A stretch of 38,446 bases of DNA from a virus: IMG/VR virus record IMGVR_UViG_3300028392_000012, positions 1-38,446 of that record. One strand, written 5' to 3'. Positions within the stretch are counted from its first letter, which is position 1; every line of letters starts with the position of its first letter. Below the pieces are notes generated by a model, which saw only the letters and a program-made list of their open reading frames with translations, had not been told where the DNA came from and did no database searches. Made by a program: the position numbers and the translations under genes. Of this stretch, positions 662 through 38,446 are shown piece by piece.

Positions 662-877
662 CTATTCGTCCTCATCCCAGTTGTCGCAGGACTTACAGAA
701 CGGGGTGCAGTCTCCAATGCAGCAGTCGCACCATTCGGTTGTGTCTGGGTATTTTCCATCTTCGGTGCAGTCTTGCGACCAGTTTGCGGGATGCGCTGGA
801 CATACCAGCATTTCAAGAAGGTTGTATCGCCACACTAGTTCGGAGTCTGGTGCGGTTTTCTCTAGTCTTGGTTTCAT
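662..877 (-). CDS. Cysteine-rich, acidic-tailed microprotein, first gene of unit A (71 aa)
   Basis: It begins MKPRLEKTAPDSELVWRYN. The C-terminal half is dense in cysteine (CPAH, DCTEDG, CDCCIGDC, FCKSCDNW) and ends in an acidic NWDEDE. This resembles small metal-binding phage early proteins, but I cannot name a family. The start at 877 directly follows the conserved GAAGGGAAAACC leader shared by five units, which fixes the start and excludes the longer frame from 949. Confidence 0.65.
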   Translation of the reverse strand: MKPRLEKTAPDSELVWRYNLLEMLVCPAHPANWSQDCTEDGKYPDTTEWCDCCIGDCTPFCKSCDNWDEDE

Positions 878-998
878 TAGGTTTTCCCTTCGTTCAGGGC
901 ACTCTGCCCTTATAGTTCTAGCCTGCCTTACAGAGGGGCTGAGTGTCAAGTCATTTCATAACATTTTTGATAACAGTTTGATAACGGATTTTGTTACA
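877..998 (-). promoter_or_regulatory. Promoter/operator/leader cassette, copy A
   Basis: Read on the minus strand: repeat sites of the GTTATCAAA family at 977-985 and 966-974 (perfect) and 954-962 (GTTATGAAA), then a -35 TTGACA at 949-944, an 18-base spacer, and a -10-like CAGGCT at 925-920. A leader hairpin AGGGC/GCCCT lies at 910-896, followed by GAAGGGAAAACC just before the ATG at 877. A fourth degenerate site (TGTAACAAA) lies at 998-990 and overlaps the stop of the upstream gene. The same order of elements occurs at four other places, which is the main support. Confidence 0.8.
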
Positions 999-1275
999 AA
1001 CCTTCGGCTGCTCGTTCGGCTTTATTCTCAAAATAGATCGCAGCACACTCAGGGCAATCAGCCCACTCGTTGTCGCCCCCATGCTGCTCGCAGTTCTCAG
1101 CCACAAACGCATTCTTATGTCCGAATCCATTTGGGCACACCCAGTATTTTTGCAATTCTCCGATCGCTTTTTTGACAACTCGGTATCCAGCCTGTTTACG
1201 ATCCCCGTAACCAACGATTTCTTTTTTCTGGAACTTCATCAGTTCAAGATGGGCGTTACATTCTTGGCATTTCAT
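994..1275 (-). CDS. Zinc-finger-like hypothetical protein (93 aa)
   Basis: The N-terminus starts MKCQECNAHLEL, and later CPNGFGHKN, ENCEQHGG and DCPECAAIYF supply further cysteines and histidines. Two small metal-binding units are plausible, as in treble-clef or zinc-ribbon DNA-binding proteins. The start overlaps the previous stop (TAATG at 1275). It is the last gene of unit B, and its stop runs into the operator array of cassette A. Function is unknown. Confidence 0.65.
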   Translation of the reverse strand: MKCQECNAHLELMKFQKKEIVGYGDRKQAGYRVVKKAIGELQKYWVCPNGFGHKNAFVAENCEQHGGDNEWADCPECAAIYFENKAERAAEGL

Positions 1276-1472
1276 TATTTGCCTTCTTTAATTTTTAAGG
1301 CTTCCTGACGATCCTTTAGGCTTTGAGCCCATGACGCATCTTGATAACGTGGATTCTTGGCTTTAAGTGTTTCTATGGATTTTTTAATTTGTTCTGCTGT
1401 TCGCCTTGACGCGATCCATCGCGGCACATCCTCGGCTTCGATCATTACTAGCGGGTTAATTGGATTTATCAC
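1275..1472 (-). CDS. Hypothetical basic helical protein (65 aa, GTG start)
   Basis: The GTG at 1472 lies in a GTGA overlap with the upstream stop, and an AAGGG motif sits 5-7 bases ahead; the longer frame from 1514 lacks such support. The protein is lysine/arginine-rich and probably helical (VPRWIASRRTAEQIKKSIE). Middle gene of the three-gene unit B. No family recognised. Confidence 0.6.
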   Translation of the reverse strand: MINPINPLVMIEAEDVPRWIASRRTAEQIKKSIETLKAKNPRYQDASWAQSLKDRQEALKIKEGK

Positions 1473-1666
1473 TTTTCGCCCTTTTCGTATGGAGTAAAGT
1501 TTACGCCGACGCACCAGACACCAGTTCGCGATTGGTAGATTTTTACCGTTTCGCTTTTGTGGTATGGATTCTGGATTCGGTATTCGTAGTATGCGCGGGC
1601 TTGTTCCTCGTTTTCGTAGCCACCGATCTCTACGTTATTTGGATGATGCTGTGGTGTTTTATTCAT
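1469..1666 (-). CDS. Hypothetical protein, first gene of unit B (65 aa)
   Basis: It begins MNKTPQHHPNNVEIGGYENE, with an alpha-beta pattern containing EQARAYYEYRI and VKIYQSRTGVWCVGV. The ATG at 1666 follows the conserved GAAGGGAAAACCTAAA leader, which decides the start. I do not recognise a family; the pattern could be a small single-domain protein binding a partner or nucleic acid. Confidence 0.6.
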   Translation of the reverse strand: MNKTPQHHPNNVEIGGYENEEQARAYYEYRIQNPYHKSETVKIYQSRTGVWCVGVNFTPYEKGEK

Positions 1667-1787
1667 TTTAGGTTTTCCCTTCATTTGGGGCTCTCTGCCC
1701 TTATGACTCCACTCTGCCTTATGGCGTATTTGATGTCAAGCCATTTCGCAACTTATTTGATAACGATTAGATAACAGTCTGTTATCA
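1667..1787 (-). promoter_or_regulatory. Promoter/operator/leader cassette, copy B
   Basis: Minus-strand order: repeat sites at 1775-1767 (GTTATCTAA), 1764-1756 (perfect GTTATCAAA) and 1752-1744 (GTTGCGAAA), -35 TTGACA at 1739-1734, a 17-base spacer, and a -10-like CAGAGT at 1716-1711. The leader hairpin is GGGCAGAGAGCCC, followed by GAAGGGAAAACC. It drives 1666 down to 994. The outermost repeat lies against the stop of the 40-residue gene upstream. Confidence 0.78.
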
Positions 1788-1907
1788 GTTTTTCTCGCCA
1801 CACTCAGGGCAGCATTCAAAGTTCAGACTGTTCGCGAACGCCCTTGTGCTCTTAGACGCTGACTTAAATACCGCGTCACATTCCCTGCAGCAGATCCACA
1901 CGTCCAT
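1785..1907 (-). CDS. Zinc-ribbon microprotein (40 aa)
   Basis: The ATG at 1907 immediately follows the TAG of the upstream gene. The 40 residues contain two cysteine knuckles (WICCRECDAVF and FECCPECGEKN) spaced like a classic four-cysteine zinc ribbon. It is the last gene of unit C and ends at the operators of cassette B. It is too short for most gene callers. A nucleic-acid- or protein-binding role is inference. Confidence 0.6.
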   Translation of the reverse strand: MDVWICCRECDAVFKSASKSTRAFANSLNFECCPECGEKN

Positions 1908-2228
1908 CTAAAGTTCCTTCATCATTTCATTTAAGGCTTTGTAATCTAGCGACTGACTGCGCCATTGAAAGTTATCAGGGGTGCGTTCTGTCGTCATGCC
2001 GTACTCTTTCAGAAACGCTATGTACGGATGATTACCTGTGTAGTCGACCATGAACCCTCGAGCCCGTTCGTACCATGCTGGATCGTTGTTGATCCAGAGC
2101 GACACGTTCCACGTTGCTTTATTTTTCCAGCCATTGTATTCAGTCATTTCGCTCTTCCTCTGTTTTTTGACTAGCGCGACGCTTTTCATCCAGTCGCTGC
2201 TTTCGATGATCTCGCTGTATTCAGTCAT
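1908..2228 (-). CDS. Conserved phage hypothetical protein with NGWKNKATWNV motif (106 aa)
   Basis: The central part (EYNGWKNKATWNVSLWINND) resembles a domain I recall from diverse phage early proteins of unknown function. The first 27 residues look like an added leader. The start at 2228 has a GGAG motif 7 bases ahead. A second in-frame ATG at 2147 also has a good GAGGAAGAG site and gives the same MTEY start, so a shorter product may also be made (see findings). Confidence 0.65.
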   Translation of the reverse strand: MTEYSEIIESSDWMKSVALVKKQRKSEMTEYNGWKNKATWNVSLWINNDPAWYERARGFMVDYTGNHPYIAFLKEYGMTTERTPDNFQWRSQSLDYKALNEMMKEL

Positions 2229-2385
2229 TTGATTCTCCATCATTGTTGTTTTGTTTTGCTGCTTTGTGGATGGCTTCGATCCCGTCCAGCCGAGTGGCGT
2301 TAGAGATGTTGCCTTCTGCGTGATCTATTTCTAGAGCCACGATTGCTTTAATTTGGTCGAGGGTTAATCCTCTAAATACACTCAT
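2221..2385 (-). CDS. Small helical hypothetical protein (54 aa)
   Basis: Starts MSVFRGLTLDQIKAIVALEI, which looks like a short helical bundle, and ends in an asparagine-rich tail. A weak GGGGAT element lies upstream. Its stop overlaps the next start by 8 bases. Coding is supported by position and by the gap-free packing of the unit; function is unknown. Confidence 0.55.
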   Translation of the reverse strand: MSVFRGLTLDQIKAIVALEIDHAEGNISNATRLDGIEAIHKAAKQNNNDGESND

Positions 2386-2394
2386 TGTGATCCC

Positions 2395-2760
2395 CTAGAA
2401 ACTGTAGTCGTAGTATTCGTCGCGGTAGCCGATTGCGAGCATTCCGTAATCTGATCCCTGCTGGATAAACTTGCCGTTTTTGCGCTTCGTGAATGTCTTG
2501 ACTGGGGCATTAGGATTGGTTGTGTATTCGTATCCTTGCGAGTCGCTCATTCCATGCCCGTCGGTTCGCTTGGCGATGTCGCGGGTTACTTTGACTGCCT
2601 TGATTTGACCTTTTTGTTCTCCGCTTTTGTAGCAGATAATTTCGACGATTGTATAAGCGTTGCGATCACTCCAGCCGAGGTAGGTTGCGCCGTCGCCGAC
2701 CTGTGGTTCACGTTGCGCTGATCCCGCTTGCAGGTAGTTAAATAGGCTTCCGTATTGCAT
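2395..2760 (-). CDS. Hypothetical protein (121 aa)
   Basis: Starts MQYGSLFNYLQAGSAQREP. A beta-rich core (VGDGATYLGWSDRNAYTIVE) suggests a small barrel-like or SH3-like fold, and the end is tyrosine-rich (YRDEYYDYSF). The start 2 bases after the previous stop is preferred over the longer frame from 2850. The WSDRNAYTIV pattern is familiar from phage and plasmid proteins of unknown function. Confidence 0.6.
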   Translation of the reverse strand: MQYGSLFNYLQAGSAQREPQVGDGATYLGWSDRNAYTIVEIICYKSGEQKGQIKAVKVTRDIAKRTDGHGMSDSQGYEYTTNPNAPVKTFTKRKNGKFIQQGSDYGMLAIGYRDEYYDYSF

Positions 2761-2762
2761 GA

Positions 2763-3038
2763 CTATTCGCCCTCTCCCCATGCTGCTGACGTTGTGTATC
2801 CTGTCGCGCTTGTTGACGCGATGTAGATTACGTCTGGCTGTGGGCGGCATTCGCAGTCGTCGTCGTTGTCAGCGATCTGGCATTCCTCTGAGTGGAAGTC
2901 CATTGTGGTGACTACGTTAATTGAGTGGATGTCTACTTCAAGTGGGTATTCAGGCTGGATTGCTAACTTGATCTCGTCGTTGCCGAACCCATTGTCTCTG
3001 ATTTCCTCTAGGAGTTCGATCATTTCGTTTACATTCAT
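2763..3038 (-). CDS. Acidic hypothetical protein, first gene of unit C (91 aa)
   Basis: Starts MNVNEMIELLEEIRDNGFGN, a helix followed by strand-rich sequence, then an acidic and cysteine-containing stretch (ADNDDDCECRPQPDVIYIA). The opening pattern resembles small phage proteins of unknown function. The ATG at 3038 is placed by the conserved cassette leader. Confidence 0.6.
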   Translation of the reverse strand: MNVNEMIELLEEIRDNGFGNDEIKLAIQPEYPLEVDIHSINVVTTMDFHSEECQIADNDDDCECRPQPDVIYIASTSATGYTTSAAWGEGE

Positions 3039-3150
3039 TTTAGGTTTTCCCTTCATTCTGGGCACTCTGCCCTGTTATGTCTCTAGACTGCCTTATGCTC
3101 ATGGTTACTGTCAAGCCATTTTGCAATTTATTTGATAACAGTTTGGTAAC
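3039..3150 (-). promoter_or_regulatory. Promoter/operator/leader cassette, copy C
   Basis: Minus-strand order: repeat sites at 3150-3142 (GTTACCAAA), 3139-3131 (perfect GTTATCAAA) and 3128-3120 (degenerate), -35 TTGACA at 3114-3109, an 18-base spacer, and -10-like CAGTCT at 3090-3085. The leader hairpin is GGGCAGAGTGCCC, followed by GAAGGGAAAACC. It lies between the structured non-coding region and the gene starting at 3038. Confidence 0.8.
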
Positions 3151-3159
3151 AGATTTTGC

Positions 3160-3470
3160 TGGCAGGTGGTGGTTATTTATCCACCTTTTAGCACCTCATG
3201 TCGGTTACGGAACAAGATTGACTATTGCTAGTGGAGCGCGTTAGCGCGATTGCGTCATGTCTCTACAAAGGTGGACGTTCGTCACTTAGGCAACCCGTGT
3301 TAAGTGATCCCCGTAGAGCGCATCTTGAAATCTATACTTTGCCTAGATCGTGATGCTGGCAATCCACCCTGCCTGTGGACATAACCCGAGTAGCCCATCT
3401 GACGGCTGCTTCTGACGCGGGTTAGGCGTAGCCCAAGTTTTACTACTTTGCGAGGTAGTTCCTGTATTTA
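3160..3470. other. Hairpin-rich non-coding region: structured RNA or replication origin candidate
   Basis: There is no credible open frame on either strand for about 310 bases. Helices seen: 3164-3169/3181-3186; 3237-3240/3245-3248; 3261-3266/3313-3318 enclosing 3282-3289/3300-3307; 3320-3324/3352-3356 enclosing 3330-3334/3344-3348; 3358-3361/3370-3373; 3383-3388/3418-3423 enclosing 3389-3395/3404-3410; 3442-3446/3455-3459. The wobble pairs in 3282-3307 and 3389-3410 are G-U only if the plus strand is transcribed. DnaA-box-like words lie at 3177-3185 (TTATCCACC) and 3374-3382 (TGTGGACAT). Both readings are inference. Confidence 0.55.
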
Positions 3471-3484
3471 GTTATTGCTAATTA

Positions 3485-3997
3485 TTAAAAAGATGTTGGG
3501 GTTGAATACTTACTGGACTTGTTGTAAATGCTGCGTTGTTGAAGTTTGACCATCGCTTCCTCGCGTGTGGATGAAGTTCGCATAATCTCGTATTGCTCAG
3601 TTCGACAGATAGGGCAGAAGGTTGTTGCGTCGTATAACTTCCCGCGCTGCTCTACGACTGCCCCGTCGATCCATCCTTTGTAACAGACCGTGTGATTACA
3701 AGCACAGCCAACAATTCTGCAATGTGCATCTGAATACACACCTGCATCTGAACGCGCTGCAGCGTTGCCCCCAGAGCGCGACAGAACTAACTGGTCGAGT
3801 CGGTACAGGGCAGCAGCGGGCGGGAAATTAACCCCTGCAAAATTACCCTTGCTGATCGTCAGGGCTAAAGCCTCTGGTTCCCACCCATTTTTCCAGCCTA
3901 TTCGCAGCGCGTTCTTTAGTCGGTCGCCGATCTCTGGACGAAGTTCAGGGGGTAAATTGTCGATGTAGTTCTGGACGTACTCATGCTGTTCCGTCAT
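3485..3997 (-). CDS. Zinc-binding hypothetical protein, last gene of unit D (170 aa)
   Basis: The N-terminal half is helical (EYVQNYIDNLPPELRPEIGD). The C-terminal half holds a split zinc-binding unit: HCRIVGCACNHTVC, then FCPICRTE about 30 residues later, with a basic tail. This layout resembles zinc-containing replication or loader proteins, but I cannot assign a function. It is the last gene before the structured non-coding region. Confidence 0.6.
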   Translation of the reverse strand: MTEQHEYVQNYIDNLPPELRPEIGDRLKNALRIGWKNGWEPEALALTISKGNFAGVNFPPAAALYRLDQLVLSRSGGNAAARSDAGVYSDAHCRIVGCACNHTVCYKGWIDGAVVEQRGKLYDATTFCPICRTEQYEIMRTSSTREEAMVKLQQRSIYNKSSKYSTPTSF

Positions 3998-4004
3998 GCT
4001 GTTC

Positions 4005-4310
4005 CTAAATTAGTTTGAGTTTTATGACTTTCTGTATTTTGTGGTATTTGCCTCGTCGGAAATACCGTCTCTCGGATGCTGTCAGCCCGCCCCACATTCC
4101 CCAATTCTCATTCTTGAGTGCGTAGTCCAAACAGGGTATGCGCTCAGGACAACCCACGCAAATCGCTCTTGCAGATTCGATAACTTCCAGATCTGGAATG
4201 ACGCTTTCCTCGGCGTAAAAAATCTCTGGATCATGATTACGGCAGGCAGCCATTGGAAGCGACGGGGGCTTCGGGAAATTATACGGGCGAGCCATACACC
4301 TATTATGCAC
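4005..4310 (-). CDS. whiB: WhiB-family Fe-S transcriptional regulator (copy 1)
   Basis: The four conserved cysteines are at about residues 23, 51, 54 and 60 (CVGCPERIPC), followed by the GMWGG turn at 71-75 and a basic tail (RRYFRRGKYHK). WhiB proteins are Fe-S regulators confined to Actinobacteria and their phages; they bind the primary sigma factor region 4 and modulate transcription. The start is uncertain: GTG at 4310 or ATG at 4295, neither with an ideal ribosome site. It may redirect host transcription or act on the phage's own repeated promoters; that is inference. Confidence 0.9.
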   Translation of the reverse strand: MHNRCMARPYNFPKPPSLPMAACRNHDPEIFYAEESVIPDLEVIESARAICVGCPERIPCLDYALKNENWGMWGGLTASERRYFRRGKYHKIQKVIKLKLI

Positions 4311-4327
4311 ATAGTTGCGACAATCAC

Positions 4328-5230
4328 CTATTTGATCGACAGCCTCGAGTATCCGTTGCCCTGTTTCTTAGGGATGAACCCGAGGAGCCTCTGGACTTCC
4401 GCCTCGTCAGTTGTTTGACGACCTGACACTTGCGCCCACTTGATTACAATCCCGTTTGCTGTAGTGCCCTGTGTGCCCTCAAGCATAGACTTTATGAAAT
4501 CCATCTGAGCGTCAGTCTGCTTATTAAGGATTTGTAGATTTTTGTAATCCTCGACTAACGACTCGATTTCAGGATTGTTGATTGGATGCTCGCTATTCAT
4601 GTTTACGATGCCTGTGCATTCGCCGTAAAAAGGGCAGTAGAGTTTACAAAAGTCTGCATCTTTTTCTGGAGCAGGTGGCTCAAAACTATCCTTGATCCCG
4701 TAATAGCGTTCTAGCGCATTTAGAGCGACAGCCTCGTCGTAATCGACTAAGTATTCGCGAATGTCATTTTCGCTGCCATCTCGAGCGATCGCGACTAATC
4801 CGACTTGATCAACTTTTACCCCATTATTGTTAGCGAGGTATCCGTACAGTTGCACCTGTTCGATCTGTTGCTGCGAGGGGAAATACGACAGGCTGTTTTT
4901 AGTAGTCGTTTTCCAATCCCAGACTGTATGGGTTTCGGTGTCGATCAGATCAACGTGCCCAACTAATTCATCTTTCTTAAACTCTGACTCGATCAAGTAC
5001 CTGCCGTCTCCTGCAAAAGCATTCTCGATCATTGTGTGAATTGCTGTGCCCATACTCGCAGCCAGTCCGAGCGTTGTTAAATTGGTTTTGGGAGTGCCAT
5101 TTATTCTGTACCAGAGTCGACGCTGGCAACCGCCAATTTCTGACGGTCCTACCCATGCTTGCAGGCTTCGTGGACGACTTGCGTCACGCTTATGTAATTT
5201 GTCGATCAAGGTATCTTTCATGCTGTTCAT
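4328..5230 (-). CDS. Cas4/RecB-like PD-(D/E)XK exonuclease
   Basis: At 300 residues, it contains a GGCQRRLWY start motif (Cys35), GHVDLID (Asp94), VWDWKTT (Asp105, Lys107) and the QVQLYGY motif at 125-131, which together form the RecB/Cas4 nuclease core. Cys195, Cys199 and Cys205 (FCKLYCPFYGEC) with Cys35 could hold a 4Fe-4S cluster as in Cas4 and AddB. In phages such proteins act with annealing proteins in recombination and end processing, and an annealing-like gene lies at 6244-6798. The AAGGA motif 6-7 bases before 5230 supports the start. Confidence 0.85.
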   Translation of the reverse strand: MNSMKDTLIDKLHKRDASRPRSLQAWVGPSEIGGCQRRLWYRINGTPKTNLTTLGLAASMGTAIHTMIENAFAGDGRYLIESEFKKDELVGHVDLIDTETHTVWDWKTTTKNSLSYFPSQQQIEQVQLYGYLANNNGVKVDQVGLVAIARDGSENDIREYLVDYDEAVALNALERYYGIKDSFEPPAPEKDADFCKLYCPFYGECTGIVNMNSEHPINNPEIESLVEDYKNLQILNKQTDAQMDFIKSMLEGTQGTTANGIVIKWAQVSGRQTTDEAEVQRLLGFIPKKQGNGYSRLSIK

Positions 5231-5239
5231 GTTGTTCCT

Positions 5240-5587
5240 TTACATGTCTATTGCGCTACGGACAGACGTTCCGATGGATCTCGTAATGTCTACCTGTGTG
5301 CGTATCCTGTTGGTATTCCCTCTTGCTGCTCTGACCTTAGCCTCTGCAATGGCTAATGACCTAATCGCAGTCGAGCATTCGACTGTTGCTAGATCCTCGC
5401 GATCTTGAACTGTGTATTTTATTGGTGCAGTTTTAGTCCTTAGCCTTGCTTCCGCCAGAGAAATTTCACACTCTGATTTTGCAATATGGTATTCAGACTC
5501 ACACTCCTCAAGAAACCTGTACGATTCGTCAATGTCTTTTGAGAGATCGAGTAATCGTTTTTCGACTGCTGCTGGAGTGACTATCAT
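5240..5587 (-). CDS. Conserved actinophage coiled-coil protein (115 aa)
   Basis: Strongly helical with heptad-like patterns (VEKRLLDLSKDIDESY, EISLAEARLRTK, IAEAKVRAARGNTNRIRTQV) and the typical ending around an R-T-Q-V-D-I block. Proteins of this type sit beside Cas4-like nucleases and annealing proteins in many actinophages, as here, but have no known function. The start overlaps the upstream stop as ATGA. Confidence 0.7.
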   Translation of the reverse strand: MIVTPAAVEKRLLDLSKDIDESYRFLEECESEYHIAKSECEISLAEARLRTKTAPIKYTVQDREDLATVECSTAIRSLAIAEAKVRAARGNTNRIRTQVDITRSIGTSVRSAIDM

Positions 5588-5721
5588 TTAACCTTGTCCT
5601 TTCTGCAATAGGAGCAGAGTGACTGGGCGTAAGACCAACTTCCGCATTGAGTGCATCTTTCAATTTTGCTGTCGACCTGTTTCCCGAGCGGTCTAGATCC
5701 ACGAATTGTCTGGTTGAGCAT
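5584..5721 (-). CDS. Zinc-ribbon microprotein overlapping the winged-helix gene (45 aa)
   Basis: The ATG at 5721 lies inside the 3' end of the winged-helix gene in another frame, with GAGAGGGTG ahead of it. The stop overlaps the next start as ATGA. The product has a four-cysteine ribbon: ERCTQCGSW and LCSYCRKDK. The exact fit between neighbours and the cysteine pattern support coding. Function unknown. Confidence 0.65.
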   Translation of the reverse strand: MLNQTIRGSRPLGKQVDSKIERCTQCGSWSYAQSLCSYCRKDKVK

Positions 5722-6244
5722 TTACGATCACCCTCTCAAAATACTCTTTGACCATTTTGGGATCCAGATCCATGTTGTCACCATAAGTGTTCCACCATGT
5801 CTGTAACTCGAGCAGCATACTTTGACGCAGCGACTCAATCTGTTGAGCAGCGTATTCGCTCTTTGGTTGTGTCTGGCGGTACGGACTGACCTCGCGATCA
5901 AAAACGTATTTGAGCAAGATGTAGATTTCGCATTTGTCTCGACGTTCAGTCAGCCGAGCAATTACTCCCTCTTTGTGCATGACGCTTAAAACCCCAGAAG
6001 CCTGCCCATGATGCCAGTCATTTGCTGCAGCCAAGTCTTTCCACGTTAAGCCCTGCATCCCAGCGCGATTAAGATCCGCATAGGTTTTATCCTGACGACG
6101 TTTAGTGATCCCATTCGAGTCTGATTCGACTGCTCGTTCAGCAGAGGTTGTTGACCCCGACCATCCTGACGTTCCGTTATACGGAGTGATTGGATCATCG
6201 TCCTTTTCGTAATAGTCGTGATTAAAAAGATCAGGCTCAGTCAT
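5693..6244 (-). CDS. Winged-helix DNA-binding protein (183 aa)
   Basis: The N-terminal 45 residues are acidic, low-complexity and include PYNGTSGWSGS. Residues about 52-115 look like a winged helix (GLTWKDLAAANDWHHGQASG, then VMHKEGVIARLTERRDKCEI as recognition helix and wing). Actinophage proteins with this same PYNGTSGWSGS plus wHTH layout are common next to recombination genes. It may regulate transcription or load replication proteins; the sequence does not decide. The start overlaps the upstream stop as TAATG at 6244. Confidence 0.7.
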   Translation of the reverse strand: MTEPDLFNHDYYEKDDDPITPYNGTSGWSGSTTSAERAVESDSNGITKRRQDKTYADLNRAGMQGLTWKDLAAANDWHHGQASGVLSVMHKEGVIARLTERRDKCEIYILLKYVFDREVSPYRQTQPKSEYAAQQIESLRQSMLLELQTWWNTYGDNMDLDPKMVKEYFERVIVNAQPDNSWI

Positions 6245-6798
6245 TACGCCACCTCGTCTTTACGTTGCATGATGTACGCCCGCAATGTCGTGTCGTTGTG
6301 ATCTAAGTCCAGCAGGTCGCTATTTGCCCCCCAGATCGCCTTTAGTTCGTCGGGGGTAGTTGCACCAGCGACTAATTCGTACGCCACCATGAGGACGGCT
6401 GTTGCCTCGTCAGCGGAACGCTCAGGCTTTGGTGCTGCAGTTTTGGCTGGGGCTCCTCGCTGAACCTTGCTCATCTCCTCACGACTTGCACGTTTGCCCT
6501 TAGTCGCAAAACCTGCATTTGCGAGTGCCCGACCGATTGCCGAAGTCTCGCAGTTTTCTAGTGCGCTGGTTTTGTTAACCATTCCTTGACCGACTACCTC
6601 TTGCGCGTAGCCTGACGAAAATGGCAGAGTTTCGACATCGCTATTGCGGTAGAGATGCGATACAAAAATGTATTGGTTATCCTCTTTTGAGATCAGTCCA
6701 GTTTCGATTCGACCATCTGGGTATTGCGTCCAGAACTTGACGATGCGTTCCTCGACTGTTTCATAGTCGTCCAGATTAAACTTGCGTTGCTGTTCCAT
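6244..6798 (-). CDS. Single-strand annealing protein-like (ERF/Rad52-type) recombinase
   Basis: The hallmark is ENCETSAIGRALANAGFA, the pattern seen in ERF-type single-strand annealing proteins and related actinophage ssDNA-binding proteins. An alanine/proline linker (GAPAKTAAPKPER) joins a small C-terminal helical domain. It would pair complementary single strands produced by the Cas4-like nuclease during replication-linked recombination. The start at 6798 is chosen for its AGGAGC site 6 bases upstream; the frame is open further back to 6900 but crosses a hairpin. It could instead be a general ssDNA-binding protein. Confidence 0.65.
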   Translation of the reverse strand: MEQQRKFNLDDYETVEERIVKFWTQYPDGRIETGLISKEDNQYIFVSHLYRNSDVETLPFSSGYAQEVVGQGMVNKTSALENCETSAIGRALANAGFATKGKRASREEMSKVQRGAPAKTAAPKPERSADEATAVLMVAYELVAGATTPDELKAIWGANSDLLDLDHNDTTLRAYIMQRKDEVA

Positions 6799-6836
6799 TG
6801 TTGCTCCTGTATAATCGGTATTGCTGTTCATTGGCG

Positions 6837-6880
6837 AGGGGCGGGTTTTACCATGCTGGAGACCCGCTCCTATTTTTATT
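6837..6880 (+). terminator. Intrinsic-terminator-like hairpin, plus-strand orientation
   Basis: Arms 6837-6846 and 6862-6871 give a 10-bp stem. The one imperfect pair is G-U on the plus-strand transcript but A-C on the minus strand. A U-rich run (TATTTTTATTATT) follows on the plus side. It therefore best fits termination of antisense transcription, although every gene here is on the minus strand. It fills most of the roughly 100-base gap before the annealing-protein gene. Confidence 0.55.
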
Positions 6881-6899
6881 ATTGCATTAGGGACTGACA

Positions 6900-7103
6900 C
6901 TATTCCCCGATCGCTGCTTCCACAAACTTTGCTTTGTCAAATCTTGGATTGTCGGTCGCCATGTAGTCAGCAATCCGATGAGCCAAGATTGAGATGTCAG
7001 CCAAATCTGGTTCGATTAACTCAAGTTCTGCATCTGCCTTGATTTCGGCAACGCTCAGGTTAATGACCTCAGCGATCTTTACATAATCTTTTCGAGTGAG
7101 CAT
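6900..7103 (-). CDS. Hypothetical helical protein (67 aa)
   Basis: Starts MLTRKDYVKIAEVINLSV and is helical throughout, with DISILAHRIADYMATDNPRF resembling small phage proteins that bind other proteins. The ATG directly follows the upstream TAA. The DNPRFD pattern is common in actinophage small genes of unknown role. Confidence 0.65.
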   Translation of the reverse strand: MLTRKDYVKIAEVINLSVAEIKADAELELIEPDLADISILAHRIADYMATDNPRFDKAKFVEAAIGE

Positions 7104-7283
7104 TTATTTCACCCCCTGCTGTTCTGCCTGAACTCTGAACTTCCAGAGGAGAAACTTTGCATGATCTCGAATCTGCCTTGTGGCTCCTGTCGTCGACTCG
7201 AGTGCCAAAACGTCTTGCAGCGTGTACCAGTTATGCTCGCTCAGTTTTAGCGTCAGTTGATCTTTCATTCGCGGTGTGCTCAT
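7104..7283 (-). CDS. Small hypothetical protein, probably DNA-binding (59 aa)
   Basis: The start overlaps the upstream stop as TAATG at 7283-7285 and the stop abuts the next ATG. The product begins MSTPRMKDQLTLKLSEHNWY and is basic and helical, with LQDVLALESTTGATRQIRDH reading like a short helix-turn-helix. Perfect packing between neighbours supports coding. The DNA-binding role is inference. Confidence 0.6.
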   Translation of the reverse strand: MSTPRMKDQLTLKLSEHNWYTLQDVLALESTTGATRQIRDHAKFLLWKFRVQAEQQGVK

Positions 7284-7636
7284 TAGAAGTACAGAGCCTC
7301 TGCCAATTTGCTGTTTGCGATCATTAGTTCCAGACGCTCTGCAGCCTTACGACTTCCGCCGACTGACCATTCTTTAACAGCCTCTGGCTTTATGTTGTAT
7401 TCTTTCCAGTCATAGATTGAGCAGTTAATACCATCGCTAAATGTGATGATCCATTCGACCTGTATCTTGCCGTCGCTTCCGTCCGAGGTGTAGCGCATTG
7501 GTTCGCCTAGAGCAGCGATTAGTTCATTGTAGTCAGCGCGGAGACTTCCGCATTTGCCTGTGCCTACCATTAGATAGACATCCTTTGTCACTTTGGCTGT
7601 GACTGTCTGTTCGATCTTTACTTCGATTGTTTTCAT
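7283..7636 (-). CDS. Hypothetical protein, first gene of unit D (117 aa)
   Basis: Starts MKTIEVKIEQTVTAKVTKDV. Alternating strands suggest a beta-rich domain (IQVEWIITFSDGINCSIYDW), followed by a C-terminal helix (RKAAERLELMIANS). The pattern is familiar from actinophage early proteins without known function. The ATG at 7636 is fixed by the cassette leader GAAGGGAAAACC. Confidence 0.65.
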   Translation of the reverse strand: MKTIEVKIEQTVTAKVTKDVYLMVGTGKCGSLRADYNELIAALGEPMRYTSDGSDGKIQVEWIITFSDGINCSIYDWKEYNIKPEAVKEWSVGGSRKAAERLELMIANSKLAEALYF

Positions 7637-7747
7637 CTTGGGTTTTCCCTTCTTGGCTGGGCTCTCTGCCTCAGTAGTTCCAGACTGCCTTACGCTGGCT
7701 ATTACTGTCAAGCCATTTGATAACTAATTTGATAACGATTTGATAAC
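7637..7747 (-). promoter_or_regulatory. Promoter/operator/leader cassette, copy D (three perfect repeats)
   Basis: This is the best-preserved copy: three perfect GTTATCAAA sites at 7747-7739, 7736-7728 and 7724-7716, stepping by 11 and 12 bp, then TTGACA at 7711-7706, an 18-base spacer and CAGTCT at 7687-7682. A weaker leader hairpin (GGGCT/AGCCC-type) and GAAGGGAAAACC follow. The two upstream sites lie inside the last codons of the preceding gene. It should drive the recombination genes down to 3485. Confidence 0.82.
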
Positions 7748-7924
7748 AGGTTCTAATCCTTCGATAAAGGCGGCGATCCGTGTAACCGTGTCATTTTGAG
7801 CGATTGCGTAAGTGTCTCCACTCGTCGTTGCATAACAGGCTGGATGTGTACCTTTACAATCGCAGGTAAAAGCAAATGGGGTAAATCGAGCCTTGATTAA
7901 ATCTGCTATTTCTTTGTTGTTCAT
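7724..7924 (-). CDS. Hypothetical protein, last gene of unit E (66 aa)
   Basis: Starts MNNKEIADLIKARFTPFAFT. The central FTCDCKGTHPACYA could bind a metal. An AAGGAAA site lies 7 bases ahead of 7924, which favours this start over 7954. The last residues (PVIKSLSN) are encoded by two operator repeats of cassette D, so the gene end and the regulatory array share sequence. Confidence 0.6.
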   Translation of the reverse strand: MNNKEIADLIKARFTPFAFTCDCKGTHPACYATTSGDTYAIAQNDTVTRIAAFIEGLEPVIKSLSN

Positions 7925-7958
7925 CGTATTTCCTTTTCTGTTTGTTGGATCCATACCA

Positions 7959-8216
7959 TTATCTATTCGTGTCTCCCTGCAACGCTATGCGTAGCCGTTC
8001 GTGGATGTATTTAAGTTTAACGGCTCCGTCTGGAGAAATTAGCAGGTTGTCGTCAATTTCACGCAGGACATCTAACACCCGTTGCTGAGATTGCGCCATC
8101 TCCATCACCGACTTGTTTCCGTAAAGGCATTCACACATTACAAGCCCACCCGTCATAAGAATTGGCTGGCAGGGATCATGCTCTAATACATACTGATTTC
8201 GCATTAGACTAGCCAT
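7959..8216 (-). CDS. Hypothetical protein (85 aa)
   Basis: Mixed sequence with a cysteine-containing middle (GLVMCECLYGN) and a helical C-terminal half (SQQRVLDVLREIDDN, KLKYIHERLRIALQ). Overlaps the upstream gene by 8 bases; ATG at 8216 or 8204. A REIDDNLL pattern is common in small phage early proteins. No function can be assigned. Confidence 0.6.
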   Translation of the reverse strand: MASLMRNQYVLEHDPCQPILMTGGLVMCECLYGNKSVMEMAQSQQRVLDVLREIDDNLLISPDGAVKLKYIHERLRIALQGDTNR

Positions 8217-8511
8217 TGTGATCCACCAGAAGCCAAGGAATCCGACTTAAATACACGTCCAGCCCTGTTAAATAATTCACAGCGTCAGCGATCTCCTCGC
8301 GCAACTCTCCAACTATTTCTTGCGCGGTTAACTCTTCCATGCGCTGATGATCGTCTCTGTTGTAAGCCTGATCTCCAGCCAAGATCCGAGTCCTTGCAAA
8401 ATCCGTGAACTGCGACTGGCAGTCAGCGAACTCTTGAGAGGTCATTCCAAACGGCGGGTAAGTGGGTAATGAGGTTTTATGACTCATGTCGTATTCTTTC
8501 ATTTTGCTCAT
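8209..8511 (-). CDS. Phage protein with MazG-like helical motif (100 aa)
   Basis: The segment ELREEIADAVNYLTGLDVYL resembles the acidic metal-binding helices of MazG/all-alpha NTP pyrophosphohydrolases, and actinophages often carry short proteins of this kind. The full four-helix enzyme is not obvious in only 100 residues, so nucleotide hydrolysis is a weak inference. The start overlaps the upstream stop as ATGA at 8508-8511. Confidence 0.55.
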   Translation of the reverse strand: MSKMKEYDMSHKTSLPTYPPFGMTSQEFADCQSQFTDFARTRILAGDQAYNRDDHQRMEELTAQEIVGELREEIADAVNYLTGLDVYLSRIPWLLVDHNG

Positions 8512-8642
8512 TCGTCATCCTCTGTGTCTGATTCGTAGTTATCGTCTCTGAACTCTGCCAGACATTCCCAGCAGTTCATAATAGACGCTGTTCCACCATG
8601 CCTACGACAGTTGCCCGCCAGTTCTGGATCAAGATTTGTCAT
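8508..8642 (-). CDS. Zinc-finger-like microprotein (44 aa)
   Basis: Starts MTNLDPELAGNCRRHGGTAS, with cysteine and histidine followed by NCWECLAEF and an acidic tail (YESDTEDDE). The C-H/CxxC spacing fits a tiny zinc-binding fold. The start at 8642 overlaps the upstream gene by 14 bases; the frame is open to 8690. Function unknown. Confidence 0.55.
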   Translation of the reverse strand: MTNLDPELAGNCRRHGGTASIMNCWECLAEFRDDNYESDTEDDE

Positions 8643-8811
8643 TACGAAACTCCTCGATGCCCTGTAAATACGTTTCGGCAGTCGCCACAATGTTTACTAT
8701 TACTGCTTCCATGAGTCGGATGTCGTCTGACTTGGAAGCCTTTTTTGCAATCTTAGAGAGTGCCTGCAGGTACTCTCGTACCGTCGTTTTGAGCATTATT
8801 TCAGGTGTCAT
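8629..8811 (-). CDS. Small helical hypothetical protein (60 aa)
   Basis: Continuous amphipathic helices (REYLQALSKIAKKASK, LMEAVIVNIVATAETYL). The start overlaps the upstream stop (ATGA at 8808-8811). The sequence does not suggest a family or membrane span. Confidence 0.55.
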   Translation of the reverse strand: MTPEIMLKTTVREYLQALSKIAKKASKSDDIRLMEAVIVNIVATAETYLQGIEEFRNDKS

Positions 8812-9086
8812 TTTTCAATCCCGTTTTCGATGTTCATGGTGATCGGTGCAATCAGTTTAAGATAGGTTTCAGGATTCTCCTCGGCTAACTTGTCAAATAC
8901 TGGAGTCTGCTCTGTTACTGCTTTTGCAATGATTTCGATCTCCTCAGAGATTAGCGCGTTAATGACTGATTGCTGCCCCGACTTAATTGCGATTGGGTGG
9001 ACAATAGTTGTTGCCACCATCGCCCCGATTGAGATAGACAGTCCGATTATCGCCAGCAGTTGCACGATGCTTATTTGATTATTCAT
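8808..9086 (-). CDS. Single-pass membrane protein with N-terminal anchor (92 aa)
   Basis: Residues about 8-30 are hydrophobic (IVQLLAIIGLSISIGAMVAT), followed by a helical soluble domain rich in glutamate and isoleucine. The layout fits an anchored cytoplasmic or extracytoplasmic helical protein. It is coupled to the WhiB gene by an ATGA overlap. A role in superinfection exclusion or membrane remodelling is possible but not shown. Confidence 0.55.
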   Translation of the reverse strand: MNNQISIVQLLAIIGLSISIGAMVATTIVHPIAIKSGQQSVINALISEEIEIIAKAVTEQTPVFDKLAEENPETYLKLIAPITMNIENGIEK

Positions 9087-9418
9087 GCTGTTCCTTCTTG
9101 TTGTAGTAGTTCCCGATCGCGTTTGCGTTCGGCTCTTTCGTGGCTAGGGAGTAGCACCCTAATGTCGTTGTTAAGTTGCAGGGGGACGATCCCCTGCTCT
9201 TTTTGGATTTCTTTGCGCTGCATCTCTGTCAGCCCGCCCCAGAAGCCTTGTTCGTTAACGTGTAGCGCGTAATCTCGACAGGCTTTAAGAACAGGGCAGC
9301 CCATACAAATCTGGATCAAAAAATCCTCAGCCTCGTACTTTTTGGCGTACTCGACGGGGAAAAACATTTCTGTGTCAATTCCTATGCACGATGCGCCTTC
9401 GTAGTTTGGTGCTCTCAT
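9083..9418 (-). CDS. whiB: WhiB-family Fe-S transcriptional regulator (copy 2)
   Basis: Cysteines at about residues 11, 38, 41 and 47 (CMGCPVLKAC) plus GFWGG at 58-62 are the WhiB signature. The C-terminal tail is long and charged (SHERAERKRDRELLQQE), unlike the short basic tail of copy 1. It is likely an Fe-S protein acting through the host primary sigma factor. The two copies are in different transcription units and diverge strongly outside the motif, so they probably have separate targets. Confidence 0.9.
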   Translation of the reverse strand: MRAPNYEGASCIGIDTEMFFPVEYAKKYEAEDFLIQICMGCPVLKACRDYALHVNEQGFWGGLTEMQRKEIQKEQGIVPLQLNNDIRVLLPSHERAERKRDRELLQQEGTA

Positions 9419-9654
9419 GGTTGCTTAATCCTGTCATTGTAGCCGTCCATGTAGCCACGTTCGTAGCCTCGTAACTCGCTTGCGTCACAGCCTGCCTCTA
9501 GCCCTGACAGGAAACCAAGTATTCGATGATCTATGAGGGCTGAGGCAAGCGCAGCCCAGATTGGATCTCCGAGCGGTTGTTCTGGAAGCAGGTGAACAAG
9601 TGCATGACGCGATTCAGCGGCTTTAGCGATTGCGTCTTTTTTGACTGAGTTCAT
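9415..9654 (-). CDS. Hypothetical helical protein (79 aa)
   Basis: Starts MNSVKKDAIAKAAESRHALV and contains a repeated glycine/tyrosine stretch (LRGYERGYMDGYNDRI), a pattern I recall from actinophage small early proteins. It starts in a TAATG overlap at 9654 and ends in an ATGA overlap with whiB copy 2, so the two are translationally coupled. Confidence 0.65.
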   Translation of the reverse strand: MNSVKKDAIAKAAESRHALVHLLPEQPLGDPIWAALASALIDHRILGFLSGLEAGCDASELRGYERGYMDGYNDRIKQP

Positions 9655-10184
9655 TACATTCCTTCCTTTGCGTATTCGGCGACGGCTGCCTGAAATTTGA
9701 TTTGGCGGGCTTGTTGATCTAGTTCGCGGTAGCGACGTGCCTCTGTTTCTGCCCACGTCTCAGCAAAATCTATGTCGATTAAGGTTGAGACTGTTTGCGA
9801 CAGAGCATCTGACATTCGACCGCCGAGCAGATTCATGTGAGTGTGAGCAACTGCCATTGCGCGGGCGCGATGCTCGTAGGGGATGCGATTTAACTCTCTT
9901 GCGTAACGATGCGCTGCTGGAAACAGGTAGCGACCGCTTTCTGAGTCAGCCCATTTCAGCCATTCCTCTGAGTAGCGATCCTCTGGTTCACGCTTCGCGC
10001 AGTAGTGATCTTTTACACAGCCGAGGGCTGATTCACCTTTTAAGAATAGTTGGTAGGGCTGGAATCCGTCTGCCTGAATTGGGTTACAGGTGGGGCAGTA
10101 AACCTTCCACACTTTTGTCCCAGCAGTCCATCCAAATCTCCGATCGTCTAGAGAATCGGTCATTGTGATCTGTTCGATAATCAT
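9654..10184 (-). CDS. Hypothetical protein with CPTC motif (176 aa)
   Basis: The N-terminal part has WKVYCPTCNP and a later GCVKDHYCAKRE, together a possible four-ligand zinc site. The rest is helical and charged (RYRELDQQARQIKFQAAV). An AGGAG motif 8 bases before 10184 supports this start. It resembles no family I can name. Third gene of unit E. Confidence 0.6.
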   Translation of the reverse strand: MIIEQITMTDSLDDRRFGWTAGTKVWKVYCPTCNPIQADGFQPYQLFLKGESALGCVKDHYCAKREPEDRYSEEWLKWADSESGRYLFPAAHRYARELNRIPYEHRARAMAVAHTHMNLLGGRMSDALSQTVSTLIDIDFAETWAETEARRYRELDQQARQIKFQAAVAEYAKEGM

Positions 10185-10187
10185 TAG

Positions 10188-10484
10188 TTACGCTCCTATT
10201 CCGACTTCGATTGTTACTGTTTGCCCGTTGATGCACGACAGCAGTTCATCCTCTAATTCTTGATTACTGACAAAACGTCCTTCGATGCGCTGCAGGTCGA
10301 TGTTCGCGATGAACTTTCCATTTTTGTAGGCGACCGATACTCCCTCGACCTCGTATTCCGAGTTGCCTTCATCACCGATTCCACTAAGGGATAGTTCCTC
10401 GATTGACTCGGCGATCTTTTCACAGATCATTTCGTGCATTTCGTCAAGCGAGATTTCAAGATCTTTGATTTTGTTTGTAGCCAT
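10188..10484 (-). CDS. Acidic hypothetical protein (98 aa)
   Basis: Starts MATNKIKDLEISLDEMHEMI. An acidic helical N-terminal half is followed by a strand-rich region (EVEGVSVAYKNGKFIANIDL) and an end reading GQTVTIEVGIGA. No family is recognised; size and position are typical of an early phage protein. Confidence 0.6.
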   Translation of the reverse strand: MATNKIKDLEISLDEMHEMICEKIAESIEELSLSGIGDEGNSEYEVEGVSVAYKNGKFIANIDLQRIEGRFVSNQELEDELLSCINGQTVTIEVGIGA

Positions 10485-10486
10485 GA

Positions 10487-10705
10487 TTAAGCCTCGATTC
10501 CGACGAGCCCATTGCGGGACACTAGCGCGACTGAGTAACGGTAGCCGTCAGGTGCATCCACGTCGCCATTGCGATAGACTCGCAGTTCCTGTCCTTCGAT
10601 CTCCATGATTACGGAGACTGCAGCGGGGATTGCATTGAGTACCTTTAGCCCGCGTTTGCGAGCCTCACGGATGCTTGCGTCACTTGTTGTTTGGATCTTG
10701 ATCAT
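10487..10705 (-). CDS. Hypothetical protein, first gene of unit E (72 aa)
   Basis: Starts MIKIQTTSDASIREARKRGL, then a basic stretch and a small beta-sheet-like region (GQELRVYRNGDVDAPDGYRY). The ATG at 10705 follows the conserved GAAGGGAAAACCTAA leader. Function unknown. Confidence 0.6.
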   Translation of the reverse strand: MIKIQTTSDASIREARKRGLKVLNAIPAAVSVIMEIEGQELRVYRNGDVDAPDGYRYSVALVSRNGLVGIEA

Positions 10706-10816
10706 TTAGGTTTTCCCTTCATTCGCTGCGCTCTGCAGCCCTATGAGTAAAAACTTAGCCGATGCGTTAGACAATTACAAGTGGATCGGGCACTATTTTG
10801 ATAACGATTTGATAAC
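10706..10816 (-). promoter_or_regulatory. Promoter/operator/leader cassette, copy E (divergent)
   Basis: Two perfect GTTATCAAA sites at 10816-10808 and 10805-10797 and the GAAGGGAAAACC leader are kept, but the third repeat is lost and the -35 is degenerate (TTGTAA, 17-base spacer, TAAGTT as a better -10). A stronger leader hairpin (GGGCTGCAGAGCGCAGC-like) replaces the simple one. An extra GTAACAAA lies further upstream at 10828-10821, inside the end of the phosphoesterase gene. It drives the unit from 10705 to 7724. Confidence 0.72.
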
Positions 10817-10824
10817 GAGATTTG

Positions 10825-12018
10825 TTACACGATCGCGAGTTCTGACCATCCAGAATCAGACAATAAAAACGTCACCTGTCCAGCCGTACTCCCTCGACCC
10901 GACGATTCCTCGAACCAGTTGCTACCGCCATCCATTGCGGGAACCTGTAGATGCCAGCGACTTTTAGCACATTCGACCATTCTGAAATGGTGGAAGTGCC
11001 CTGTAACAAGTAGATCTGCTCCACCGACAGCGCGGTTTCCTAATGCTTGACCTTCCCACCATCGCCCAATGTCGCCTGATCGCGACTGGTGTCCATGAGC
11101 CAAACCAATAATTTTATTACCTACCTGCAGCGACACCGATAATTCCTCTTTAGGGAGCAGCCATTTTATGTGTCCAAACACGTCAGGCTTGATCGCAAGA
11201 GTCTCAGCGACTGCTTCCCAAACTGCTACATCGTCATTGTCGTTAGTCGAAGTAAAGGATTTAGATCCACGACGATTCTCGCCATGATTACCCGCAACAG
11301 CAGCAACAGTCACCGACTCAAAATGAGGAGCCCACTTCATCAGAGCGTTACGCGCCAGCCGTCGAACTATTTTATTTTGATCACGTCGATCTAACTCAAT
11401 TCCGAATGTTTGTTGTTCGTAGTGCCCTGTGCAGCCCTCACCTAAATCACCCAGCGAGCAAACCAGCAAGTGCCCAATGTCGTAGCCGCATTCTCTAAGA
11501 TAATCCGCCCGATCTAGCACAGCGTTAAAGGATGCCTCTAGGCGAGCCGTAGTGCCTTCTAAGCCGTCGCCATCATCCTTTCCGATCTGCCAATCCCCCA
11601 GAGGAACAACCATTGTGTATCGCCCGCTGTGACGATTGGTTGGACGCTTAATCCTTTTAACGGGAGCAGTCAATAACTCTAGTTCCGAAGCAGTCAGTCC
11701 AGACTTAGAACGGATCGTCGCTTTGTAAGCCCATAACTGGCGTTCATCATAGGTTTGCCAAGTGCTGAATCTGACAGGCTCAATCACCTCGTACAGATCT
11801 GGATCAAAACCCCATTCTCGAAGTTCATCGTCCCAATTAGCGACAGGGGCTGTTTTAGGTTTGGTTGTTAATTCGCCGTCCATCCCGTCAAAGATTACGC
11901 CCGCCTTCCAATGCGAGCCCTGATCTGCCTGTGGTTTTTCTTTTTTGACAGAGACGGGGATGGATCCGCCTTCTACCGTTTGTAATAACTCCTCGACACG
12001 ATCAGAAAAATTGCTCAT
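10825..12018 (-). CDS. Calcineurin-like metallophosphoesterase
   Basis: Metal-binding motifs in order: GDWQIGK (141-147), GDLGE (190-194), AGNHGE (242-247), AHGHQ (307-311) and TGHFHH (339-344), the full calcineurin-like set. The 130-residue N-terminal part is variable. Phage enzymes of this type are related to Mre11/SbcD and may trim DNA ends or cleave nucleotides; the sequence does not tell which. Length (397 aa) is normal. The start forms an ATGA overlap with the small HTH gene, and the stop lies at operator cassette E. Confidence 0.8.
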   Translation of the reverse strand: MSNFSDRVEELLQTVEGGSIPVSVKKEKPQADQGSHWKAGVIFDGMDGELTTKPKTAPVANWDDELREWGFDPDLYEVIEPVRFSTWQTYDERQLWAYKATIRSKSGLTASELELLTAPVKRIKRPTNRHSGRYTMVVPLGDWQIGKDDGDGLEGTTARLEASFNAVLDRADYLRECGYDIGHLLVCSLGDLGEGCTGHYEQQTFGIELDRRDQNKIVRRLARNALMKWAPHFESVTVAAVAGNHGENRRGSKSFTSTNDNDDVAVWEAVAETLAIKPDVFGHIKWLLPKEELSVSLQVGNKIIGLAHGHQSRSGDIGRWWEGQALGNRAVGGADLLVTGHFHHFRMVECAKSRWHLQVPAMDGGSNWFEESSGRGSTAGQVTFLLSDSGWSELAIV

Positions 12019-12206
12019 CTAGCCTCGCAAGAACAAGTCCCCGCCCTGTGGCGATAGACGATTTGATAAGAGATCTTAAATCCTGCAGCCTCAAGTTCGC
12101 GGGATACAGAAGCAGCAGGAATAGGCGCAGCGATCAGAGAGCGTAAAGCCCGAGCGTCCTGTTCCGTCATGGCTGAGTAAACTCTAGCCACTCCACAATT
12201 TGCCAT
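12015..12206 (-). CDS. Small helix-turn-helix protein (63 aa)
   Basis: Starts MANCGVARVYSAM with an AAGGT site 6 bases ahead. Residues about 24-50 read as a helix-turn-helix (IPAASVSRELEAAGFKISYQ), followed by a short tail with CSC. Such small HTH proteins commonly precede phosphoesterase genes in actinophages. A DNA-binding role is likely, but its target is unknown. Confidence 0.6.
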   Translation of the reverse strand: MANCGVARVYSAMTEQDARALRSLIAAPIPAASVSRELEAAGFKISYQIVYRHRAGTCSCEAR

Positions 12207-12241: not shown

Positions 12242-12658
12242 TTATGCGGGCATAGTTTTAAGTTGCAAATTGACCGTGTTGTAATTAGAAGCCCACCCCA
12301 GATAAATCTTTCCCCAATGCTGGGCAAACCATGTTACGGGCACTTCGCCTACATAGTTGGTTACTGGAGCATCTGTCGAGATTACAATACCTTTTTTGTC
12401 TGACTGCAGAGCAACATGCCCATAGTCACCGCCAGCCCAAAAATGGGGAGCCCCGATTGGAGCCTTAGTTGGATCGGTATGACGCGCTGCTTTTGGGACG
12501 TGATTCCATGCGTCGATTGCCGAAGCAAACATTACAGGGAGTCCCCAAGAGTTTTGACAGGTTGCATGGCAACGACCCTGCACCCCGTTGTGATGGGTGT
12601 CCATCATGTGTTTCATGGTGGCAAATGCTTGTTGTCCCGTGAGCCTACTGCTGGACAT
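12242..12658 (-). CDS. Endolysin, single peptidase domain (actinophage lysin A type)
   Basis: Cys34 in HATCQNSWG, His81 in GDYGHVALQ and the end motif WGKIYLGW match the peptidase domain common in actinophage lysins (CHAP/NlpC-like cysteine peptidase). It would cut peptide bridges of host peptidoglycan. At 138 residues it has no separate cell-wall-binding domain. The start at 12658 has an AAGGT site 7 bases upstream; 12676 is an alternative. It sits directly after three membrane-associated genes, forming a lysis cassette. Confidence 0.75.
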   Translation of the reverse strand: MSSSRLTGQQAFATMKHMMDTHHNGVQGRCHATCQNSWGLPVMFASAIDAWNHVPKAARHTDPTKAPIGAPHFWAGGDYGHVALQSDKKGIVISTDAPVTNYVGEVPVTWFAQHWGKIYLGWASNYNTVNLQLKTMPA

Positions 12659-12863
12659 TTGATTTACCTTTTCCATAACGAGCGTCTTGCGGATTTAGCG
12701 CGTTAATTCCGACGTTAACAATCATGATTACAACTGCAGTCTGAGCAGGATCAAGGTTAAGGGACGCAGCATTATTAAGCACCCATGCAAGCCCCGCGCC
12801 AACTCCCACCTTAAATGCAGTCCCTAGCGGATGCTTGGCAAGCCAATTAAAAATCTGTGTCAT
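12645..12863 (-). CDS. Holin-like small membrane protein (72 aa)
   Basis: Starts MTQIFNWLAKHPLGTAFKVG. Two hydrophobic stretches are visible (GTAFKVGVGAGLAWVL and TAVVIMIVNVGINAL) separated by a polar turn, with a basic tail (DARYGKGKS). Two-span membrane topology right before the lysin fits a class II holin. The start at 12863 overlaps the 37-residue gene; the longer frame from 12947 is unlikely. Confidence 0.6.
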   Translation of the reverse strand: MTQIFNWLAKHPLGTAFKVGVGAGLAWVLNNAASLNLDPAQTAVVIMIVNVGINALNPQDARYGKGKSNVQQ

Positions 12864-38434: not shown

Positions 38435-38446
38435 AACCTCATTCTA
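38320..38446. repeat. Terminal direct repeat, right copy
   Basis: Identical to bases 1-127. It contains the start of the junction-spanning gene. Counted once, the circle is 38,319 bp. Confidence 0.95.

Follow-up and report, generated by a model that had tools for sequence, protein, structure and literature searches.

Five near-identical promoters in the left arm of a phage genome carry direct repeats that match the binding site of the host response regulator MtrA

The virus record IMGVR_UViG_3300028392_000012, 38,446 bp in length and analysed here in full as the window, contains five copies of a promoter cassette (A to E) whose upstream direct repeats match the binding site of the host response regulator MtrA. 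We propose that the cassette is a promoter regulated, and most likely activated, by MtrA, an essential host regulator of the OmpR/PhoB family. On sequence comparison, we assign this reading a probability of about 0.72. We discuss the match to the MtrA site, the architecture of the cassette, its recurrence in other phages, and the alternative readings.

The distal box pair of the cassette, CGTTATCAAATCGTTATC, can be compared with MtrA sites described in two bacteria. In Mycobacterium tuberculosis, the tightest of 294 measured MtrA sites is that of Rv2524c, GTTTTGTTATCAAATCGTTATGCTGG, with an affinity of 4.6e-8 M (46 nM); its half-sites TGTTATC and CGTTATG are both essential, such that replacement of either lowers affinity ~85,000-fold or abolishes binding (PMC10609481). 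The core of this 46 nM fragment, GTTATCAAATCGTTAT, recurs in cassettes D and E. The M. tuberculosis motif from chromatin immunoprecipitation sequencing is cG[T/A]nA[C/T]c, repeated with a 4-nt gap (PMC6265350), and all five distal pairs are direct repeats of this motif with an 11-bp period. The Corynebacterium glutamicum consensus, (A/G)TAACAATttn(A/G)TAACAAT (PMC3353115), is nearly identical, when read on the other strand, to the plus-strand window sequence ATAACGATTTGATAAC. In C. glutamicum, MtrA sites upstream of the -35 element activate and sites near the -10 element repress (PMC3353115); all five window copies lie upstream of -35 at a fixed helical phase. Finally, OmpR-family proteins (PF00486) are encoded in none of 18 tested phage records with arrays, namely the window and 17 others, which thus lack a regulator gene of this type.

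The cassettes lie on the minus strand, as do nearly all window genes, and their coordinates are listed in Table 1. Each follows the same order: box 1, box 2 at a step of 11 bp, a third slot at a step of 12 bp, the -35 element 13 bp further on, a spacer of 17 or 18 bp, the -10 element, a hairpin, the leader GAAGGGAAAACC with its ribosome-binding site, and ATG. Every cassette has 25 nt between the start of box 2 and -35, despite the variable spacer between -35 and -10. An independent repeat search of the window recovers the five cassettes, and the nine perfect copies of GTTATCAAA reported in a first-pass annotation, made from the sequence and its open reading frames, lie where that annotation placed them. 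With up to one mismatch, GTTATCAAA has 24 matches in the window against 9.7 expected, a count that none of 100 shuffles reached; the pair GTNAYC-N5-GTNAYC occurs once per cassette and nowhere else in the 38.4 kb (5 matches, 0.23 expected).

Other details of the first-pass annotation, which did not mention the constant 25-nt distance, hold for part of the set. It gave every cassette TTGACA and a CANNNT -10, which is correct for A to D (CAGNNT), while E has TTGTAA with a good -10, TAAGTT. It described two or three repeats; cassette D has a perfect third copy, A to C have a degenerate one, and E has none. Its GGGC/GCCC leader hairpin is present in A to C; D has GGC/GCC, and the stem of E is GCTGC/GCAGC. 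Each of the five leaders folds into a hairpin (z -2.0 to -2.9), with compensating changes in E. The poor -10 of A to D fits dependence on an activator, and the basal level may be higher in cassette E, which has two boxes and a better -10. The exact leader pattern GGGCAGAGNGCCC...GAAGGGAAA was not found in IMG/VR outside the window record, and the leader is therefore specific to the window phage.

Table 1. Coordinates of the five cassettes and of candidate regulator genes in the window (ORF, open reading frame; aa, amino acids)
Feature	Position	Strand	Boxes	-35	-10	Hairpin	Leader	Start codon or remarks
Cassette A	877..985	-	977-985, 966-974, degenerate 954-962 (GTTATGAAA)	TTGACA 944-949	CAGGCT 920-925	897-909	GAAGGGAAAACC 880-891	ATG 877 (ORF 662-877, 71 aa)
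Cassette B	1666..1775	-	1767-1775 (GTTATCTAA), 1756-1764, degenerate 1744-1752 (GTTGCGAAA)	TTGACA 1734-1739	CAGAGT 1711-1716	1688-1700	1671-1682	ATG 1666 (ORF 1469-1666)
Cassette C	3038..3150	-	3142-3150 (GTTACCAAA), 3131-3139, degenerate 3119-3127 (ATTGCAAAA)	TTGACA 3109-3114	CAGTCT 3085-3090	3060-3072	3043-3054	ATG 3038 (ORF 2763-3038)
Cassette D	7636..7747	-	perfect 7739-7747, 7728-7736, 7716-7724	TTGACA 7706-7711	CAGTCT 7682-7687	core 7660-7670	7641-7652	ATG 7636 (ORF 7283-7636)
Cassette E	10705..10816	-	10808-10816, 10797-10805, third slot not conserved	TTGTAA 10775-10780	TAAGTT 10752-10757	GCTGC-AGAGC-GCAGC 10725-10739	10709-10720	ATG 10705 (ORF 10487-10705)
WhiB-family gene	4005..4310	-						PF02467, E value 2.2e-16; actinophage marker, not favoured as regulator
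Second WhiB-family gene	9083..9418	-						PF02467, E value 9.8e-14
Weak MarR/winged-helix-like protein	5693..6244	-						MarR_2, E value 0.017, below cutoff; rival regulator, not favoured

The box array is widespread in other phages. The first-pass annotation had proposed a search for the repeats together with TTGACA in related genomes; in IMG/VR, GTTATCNAANNGTTATCNAA followed by TTGACA within 31 bp matched 109 contigs, and the control, the same pattern with the hexamer reversed, matched 0. A looser pattern in the opposite orientation gave 22 matches. In 58 nonredundant sites, TTGACA lies 13-15, 23-27, or 33-37 bp from box 2 and at no other distance, with peaks at 14-15 and 25. These distances step by one helical turn (Rayleigh R=0.92 at 10.5 bp, p~5e-22, a value that is indicative since sites of related phages are not fully independent), and TANNNT stands at the proper spacing in 38 of the 58 sites against 4.75 expected. 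The phased arrays are therefore promoters, with boxes that act from one face of the helix. The first-pass proposal that a single DNA-binding protein occupies helically spaced repeats upstream of -35, and so switches the five units as a regulon, probably by activation, gains support from this phasing, which extends across many phages.

The same 20-bp array is common to many unlike phages, which differ in gene content and range from the mid-thirties to ~60% in guanine-cytosine (GC) content. When one mismatch is tolerated, the number of pairs per array-bearing record is 1-7 (5 in the window; 7, 5, 5, 4, and 3 in others), and the control gave one match in 38 records. Among named phages, a three-box query matched intergenic DNA in Gordonia, Corynebacterium, and Mycobacterium abscessus phages only; the remaining matches were intragenic. 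Many actinobacterial-looking phages place MtrA-type boxes at fixed helical distances, a pattern suggestive of a widespread tie of phage genes to host control.

The host group is presumably actinobacterial. WhiB serves as an actinophage marker (PMC10202952), and this actinobacteria-specific family is encoded twice in the window, by 18 of 50 array-bearing records, mostly fragmentary, and by 21 of the 26 long ones whose arrays are phased. In bacterial chromosomes, the box pair has 15 matches in one actinobacterial class (14 of 395 genomes) against 2 for the control, and 25 against 1 in one order of small, 1-2 Mb genomes (151 genomes), which on genome size and GC content is probably the freshwater Nanopelagicales. 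Two genomes of this order (1.5 and 1.9 Mb, loci 49% GC) encode MtrA, with 347 and 341 bits to the NCBIfam equivalog NF040689 (cutoff 300 bits); in both, helix 8 reads TRLVNVHVQRLRAKV, the same as the M. tuberculosis helix given in PMC10609481.

These features can be assembled into a mechanism. An MtrA dimer would bind cGTTATCaaatcGTTATC, the 11-bp direct repeat, in head-to-tail arrangement, and the adjacent third half-site in A to D may take further MtrA. Bound in this manner, MtrA would sit 25 bp upstream of -35 (counted from the start of box 2), on the helix face that allows contact with RNA polymerase, and the polymerase contacted there would hold a consensus -35 and, in A to D, a poor -10. 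A single host protein could thereby switch all five left-arm units together, and phage expression would be tied to MtrAB signaling, that is, to cell division, the cell envelope, and osmotic state. Each transcript would begin with a short hairpin and the common Shine-Dalgarno leader, which probably serve mRNA stability or uniform translation.

The identity of the binding protein is the point on which this mechanism departs from the first-pass annotation, which named a phage WhiB, winged-helix, or helix-turn-helix protein. Control of the five units by a protein of the phage, whether WhiB with SigA, the winged-helix protein at 5693-6244, or the 63-amino-acid protein at 12015-12206, is quite unlikely in our judgment, even with two WhiB genes and the weak MarR-like match inside the regulated arm, and with some WhiB proteins acting together with SigA on AT-rich DNA immediately 5' of the -35 element. 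The presence of one array in phages of such different GC and gene content argues against it, as do the 5 of 26 long array-bearing records (possibly fragments) in which no WhiB match was found. Of 21 records tested, 3 have homologues of the winged-helix protein, and two of these lack arrays, a distribution unlike that of the arrays. For the 12015-12206 protein, Pfam gave no match and PHROG none of significance (best E value 0.07). Moreover, the site is identical to one published for MtrA and is also present in bacterial chromosomes, and the OmpR family, which typically uses 11-bp direct repeats, is missing from all 18 array records. The same habit of binding belongs to the whole family, such that another host member (PhoP/RegX3, PrrA, or a GlnR-like orphan) could use the repeat. 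Candidate host genomes hold several PF00486 proteins, and the chromosomal copies often precede sugar ABC-transporter genes. We nonetheless hold this to be unlikely: the repeats published for PhoP/PhoR-type regulators are of another sequence (C. glutamicum PhoR, CCTGTGAAaatCCTGTGAA, PMC3353115), and MtrA is the only protein known to have a measured top-affinity site that contains the cassette sequence.

MtrA, or a similar protein, might instead repress the promoters until signaling changes, in a lysogeny-like or pseudolysogeny switch. OmpR-family regulators can repress, and an M. abscessus prophage has a box pair in the intergenic region beside its immunity repressor gene. The positional rule from C. 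glutamicum (PMC3353115), the location of all five cassettes upstream of -35 with helical phasing, and the poor -10 of A to D make this switch a less probable arrangement, which we doubt without dismissing. An origin by chance, or as an unrelated repeat such as IHF-like, DnaA-like, or integrase-arm sites, draws on the occurrence of the same 20-mer in nonactinobacterial settings, including repeated elements of Oscillospiraceae and intergenic DNA of Flavobacterium. It is extremely improbable, and for promoter-linked arrays it is refuted by the reversed control (0 vs 109), the strict phasing to TTGACA, and the -10 enrichment (38 vs 4.75); DnaA and IHF were rejected because of this phasing. Several points weigh against activation by MtrA itself. 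MtrA affinity is poorly predicted from sequence alone, according to the study that measured it (PMC10609481), and the fixed upstream position could also suit a repressor that contacts polymerase. One of the two MtrA-encoding genomes has five PF00486 matches, four above cutoff, and such proteins could share the site; many chromosomal copies in this order precede sugar ABC-transporter genes, which are not classical MtrA targets; and a search upstream of mtrA in two genomes of this order found no GTNAYC pair. In addition, box pairs are missing, even with one mismatch allowed, from the window's four longest terminase relatives.

The terminase relatives without arrays stand at 58-65% identity. Relatives without the repeats were the outcome that the first-pass annotation had named as counting against its scheme, and these four partly provide it; two of them carry multi-copy leader or promoter cassettes of other sequence. 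In one relative (L278), a promoter-leader element without MtrA boxes recurs at 3512-3561, 7922-7988, 10327-10393, and 11719-11770, with a ACCGTAACC spacer, a TAATCT-like -10, and an AT-rich leader hairpin, TTATTGG...CCAATAA. In another (L273), leaders of the form GG(C/G)GTAAGAA(G/C)CC followed by AAAGGAGAAAT recur at 11565-11643, 12642-12720, and 18457-18535; they combine a hairpin and a ribosome-binding site in the same architecture as the window leaders, with a different sequence. Since relatives have multi-copy elements of their own without boxes, the multi-copy cassette is the more conserved habit, and MtrA boxes are one filling, gained or lost over moderate distances.

Matches of the 20-mer in bacterial genomes at large were rejected as actinobacterial evidence, as most belong to Oscillospiraceae and Flavobacterium repeats. 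At most of these loci, GTTATCAAATCGTTATCAAA forms part of an element that is repeated in Oscillospiraceae and their relatives and ends in ...ATTCCCACTC, resembling the 3' end of guaA; it has the look of an attachment region for integrative elements, with no connection to phage promoters. In Flavobacterium (four loci and similar ones), the 20-mer lies in conserved intergenic DNA followed by TTAACA-type repeats and is perhaps the site of another OmpR-family regulator. In the actinobacteria with small genomes, genes for sugar-binding ABC transporters often follow the 11-bp repeat, at five loci and others, which suggests that the regulator controls sugar uptake there.

Other features of the window concern the genome as a whole. 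Its ends are identical over 127 bp (1-127 and 38320-38446); therefore, the genome record is probably complete, and either circularly permuted or circularised. The block headed by cassette D encodes a Cas4-like exonuclease, one WhiB, and the winged-helix protein; a peptide-pattern search of viral contigs for the Cas4 exonuclease returned no relatives. Upstream of cassette C, ~315 bp without a minus-strand gene (3165-3480) contain GGTGG...CCACC followed by a T run, along with other inverted segments; this is possibly a structured RNA or a terminator region, and no Rfam match was found. PHROG matches place a PAPS-reductase-like gene at 33570-34694 and a glucosyltransferase-like gene at 35221-35943, with a possible role in DNA modification.

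The window would join systems, already documented, in which phage promoter regions hold sites for a host OmpR-family response regulator. In alphaproteobacterial phages, binding and regulation by the cell-cycle regulator CtrA ("lytic deferment") were demonstrated by gel shift and reporters, and the sites, which are skewed to promoters, arose independently in several phage lineages, a further likeness (PMC9437464). The window differs in host phylum and regulator, and in its tandem arrays, fixed helical distances, and repeated promoter-leader cassette. In cyanophages, Pho boxes are likewise direct-repeat sites for a host OmpR/PhoB-family regulator (PMC10976474; Zeng and Chisholm 2012, cited therein), with binding in the window being predicted; PhoB links phosphate stress to selected genes, whereas the window sets most of its left arm behind five near-identical promoters under predicted MtrA control. 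The MtrA regulons of mycobacteria, corynebacteria, and Streptomyces have the same half-site, cGTnA[C/T]c, in 11-bp repeats and the same activator position upstream of -35, and their listed sites serve chromosomal genes; these papers list no phage promoter (PMC6265350, PMC3353115, PMC13189361). The start-associated sequences (SAS/ESAS) of Cluster K mycobacteriophages are also conserved multi-copy, same-strand elements just upstream of gene starts, with a 13-bp GGG...CCC element, GGGATAGGAGCCC, that resembles GGGCAGAGWGCCC in the window; however, the ESAS form 17-bp inverted repeats to which no promoter has been assigned (PMC3203893). The window cassettes fall outside this definition: GGGCAGAGWGCCC lies upstream of the Shine-Dalgarno sequence rather than near the start codon, and the repeats are direct and accompanied by -35 and -10 elements.

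In the literature covered, which excludes most subscription journals, we found no paper that ties MtrA to phage promoters; such control, as predicted here, would extend the CtrA and PhoB pattern to a third phylum. A broader proposition, which we hold at even odds, is that many unrelated actinophages have independently put promoters under MtrAB, coupling the lytic program to host division as a counterpart of CtrA "lytic deferment"; a phase rule of 14.5, 25, and 36 bp would then predict MtrA-driven promoters from sequence alone. Actinobacteria include the most abundant freshwater bacteria as well as Mycobacterium. An MtrA array at phased distances is short and recognisable, provides a rule, open to test, by which regulated promoters can be sought in viral dark matter, and offers a host marker for actinophages. 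It also raises the question of why phages would tie their genes to an essential regulator of division and the cell envelope.

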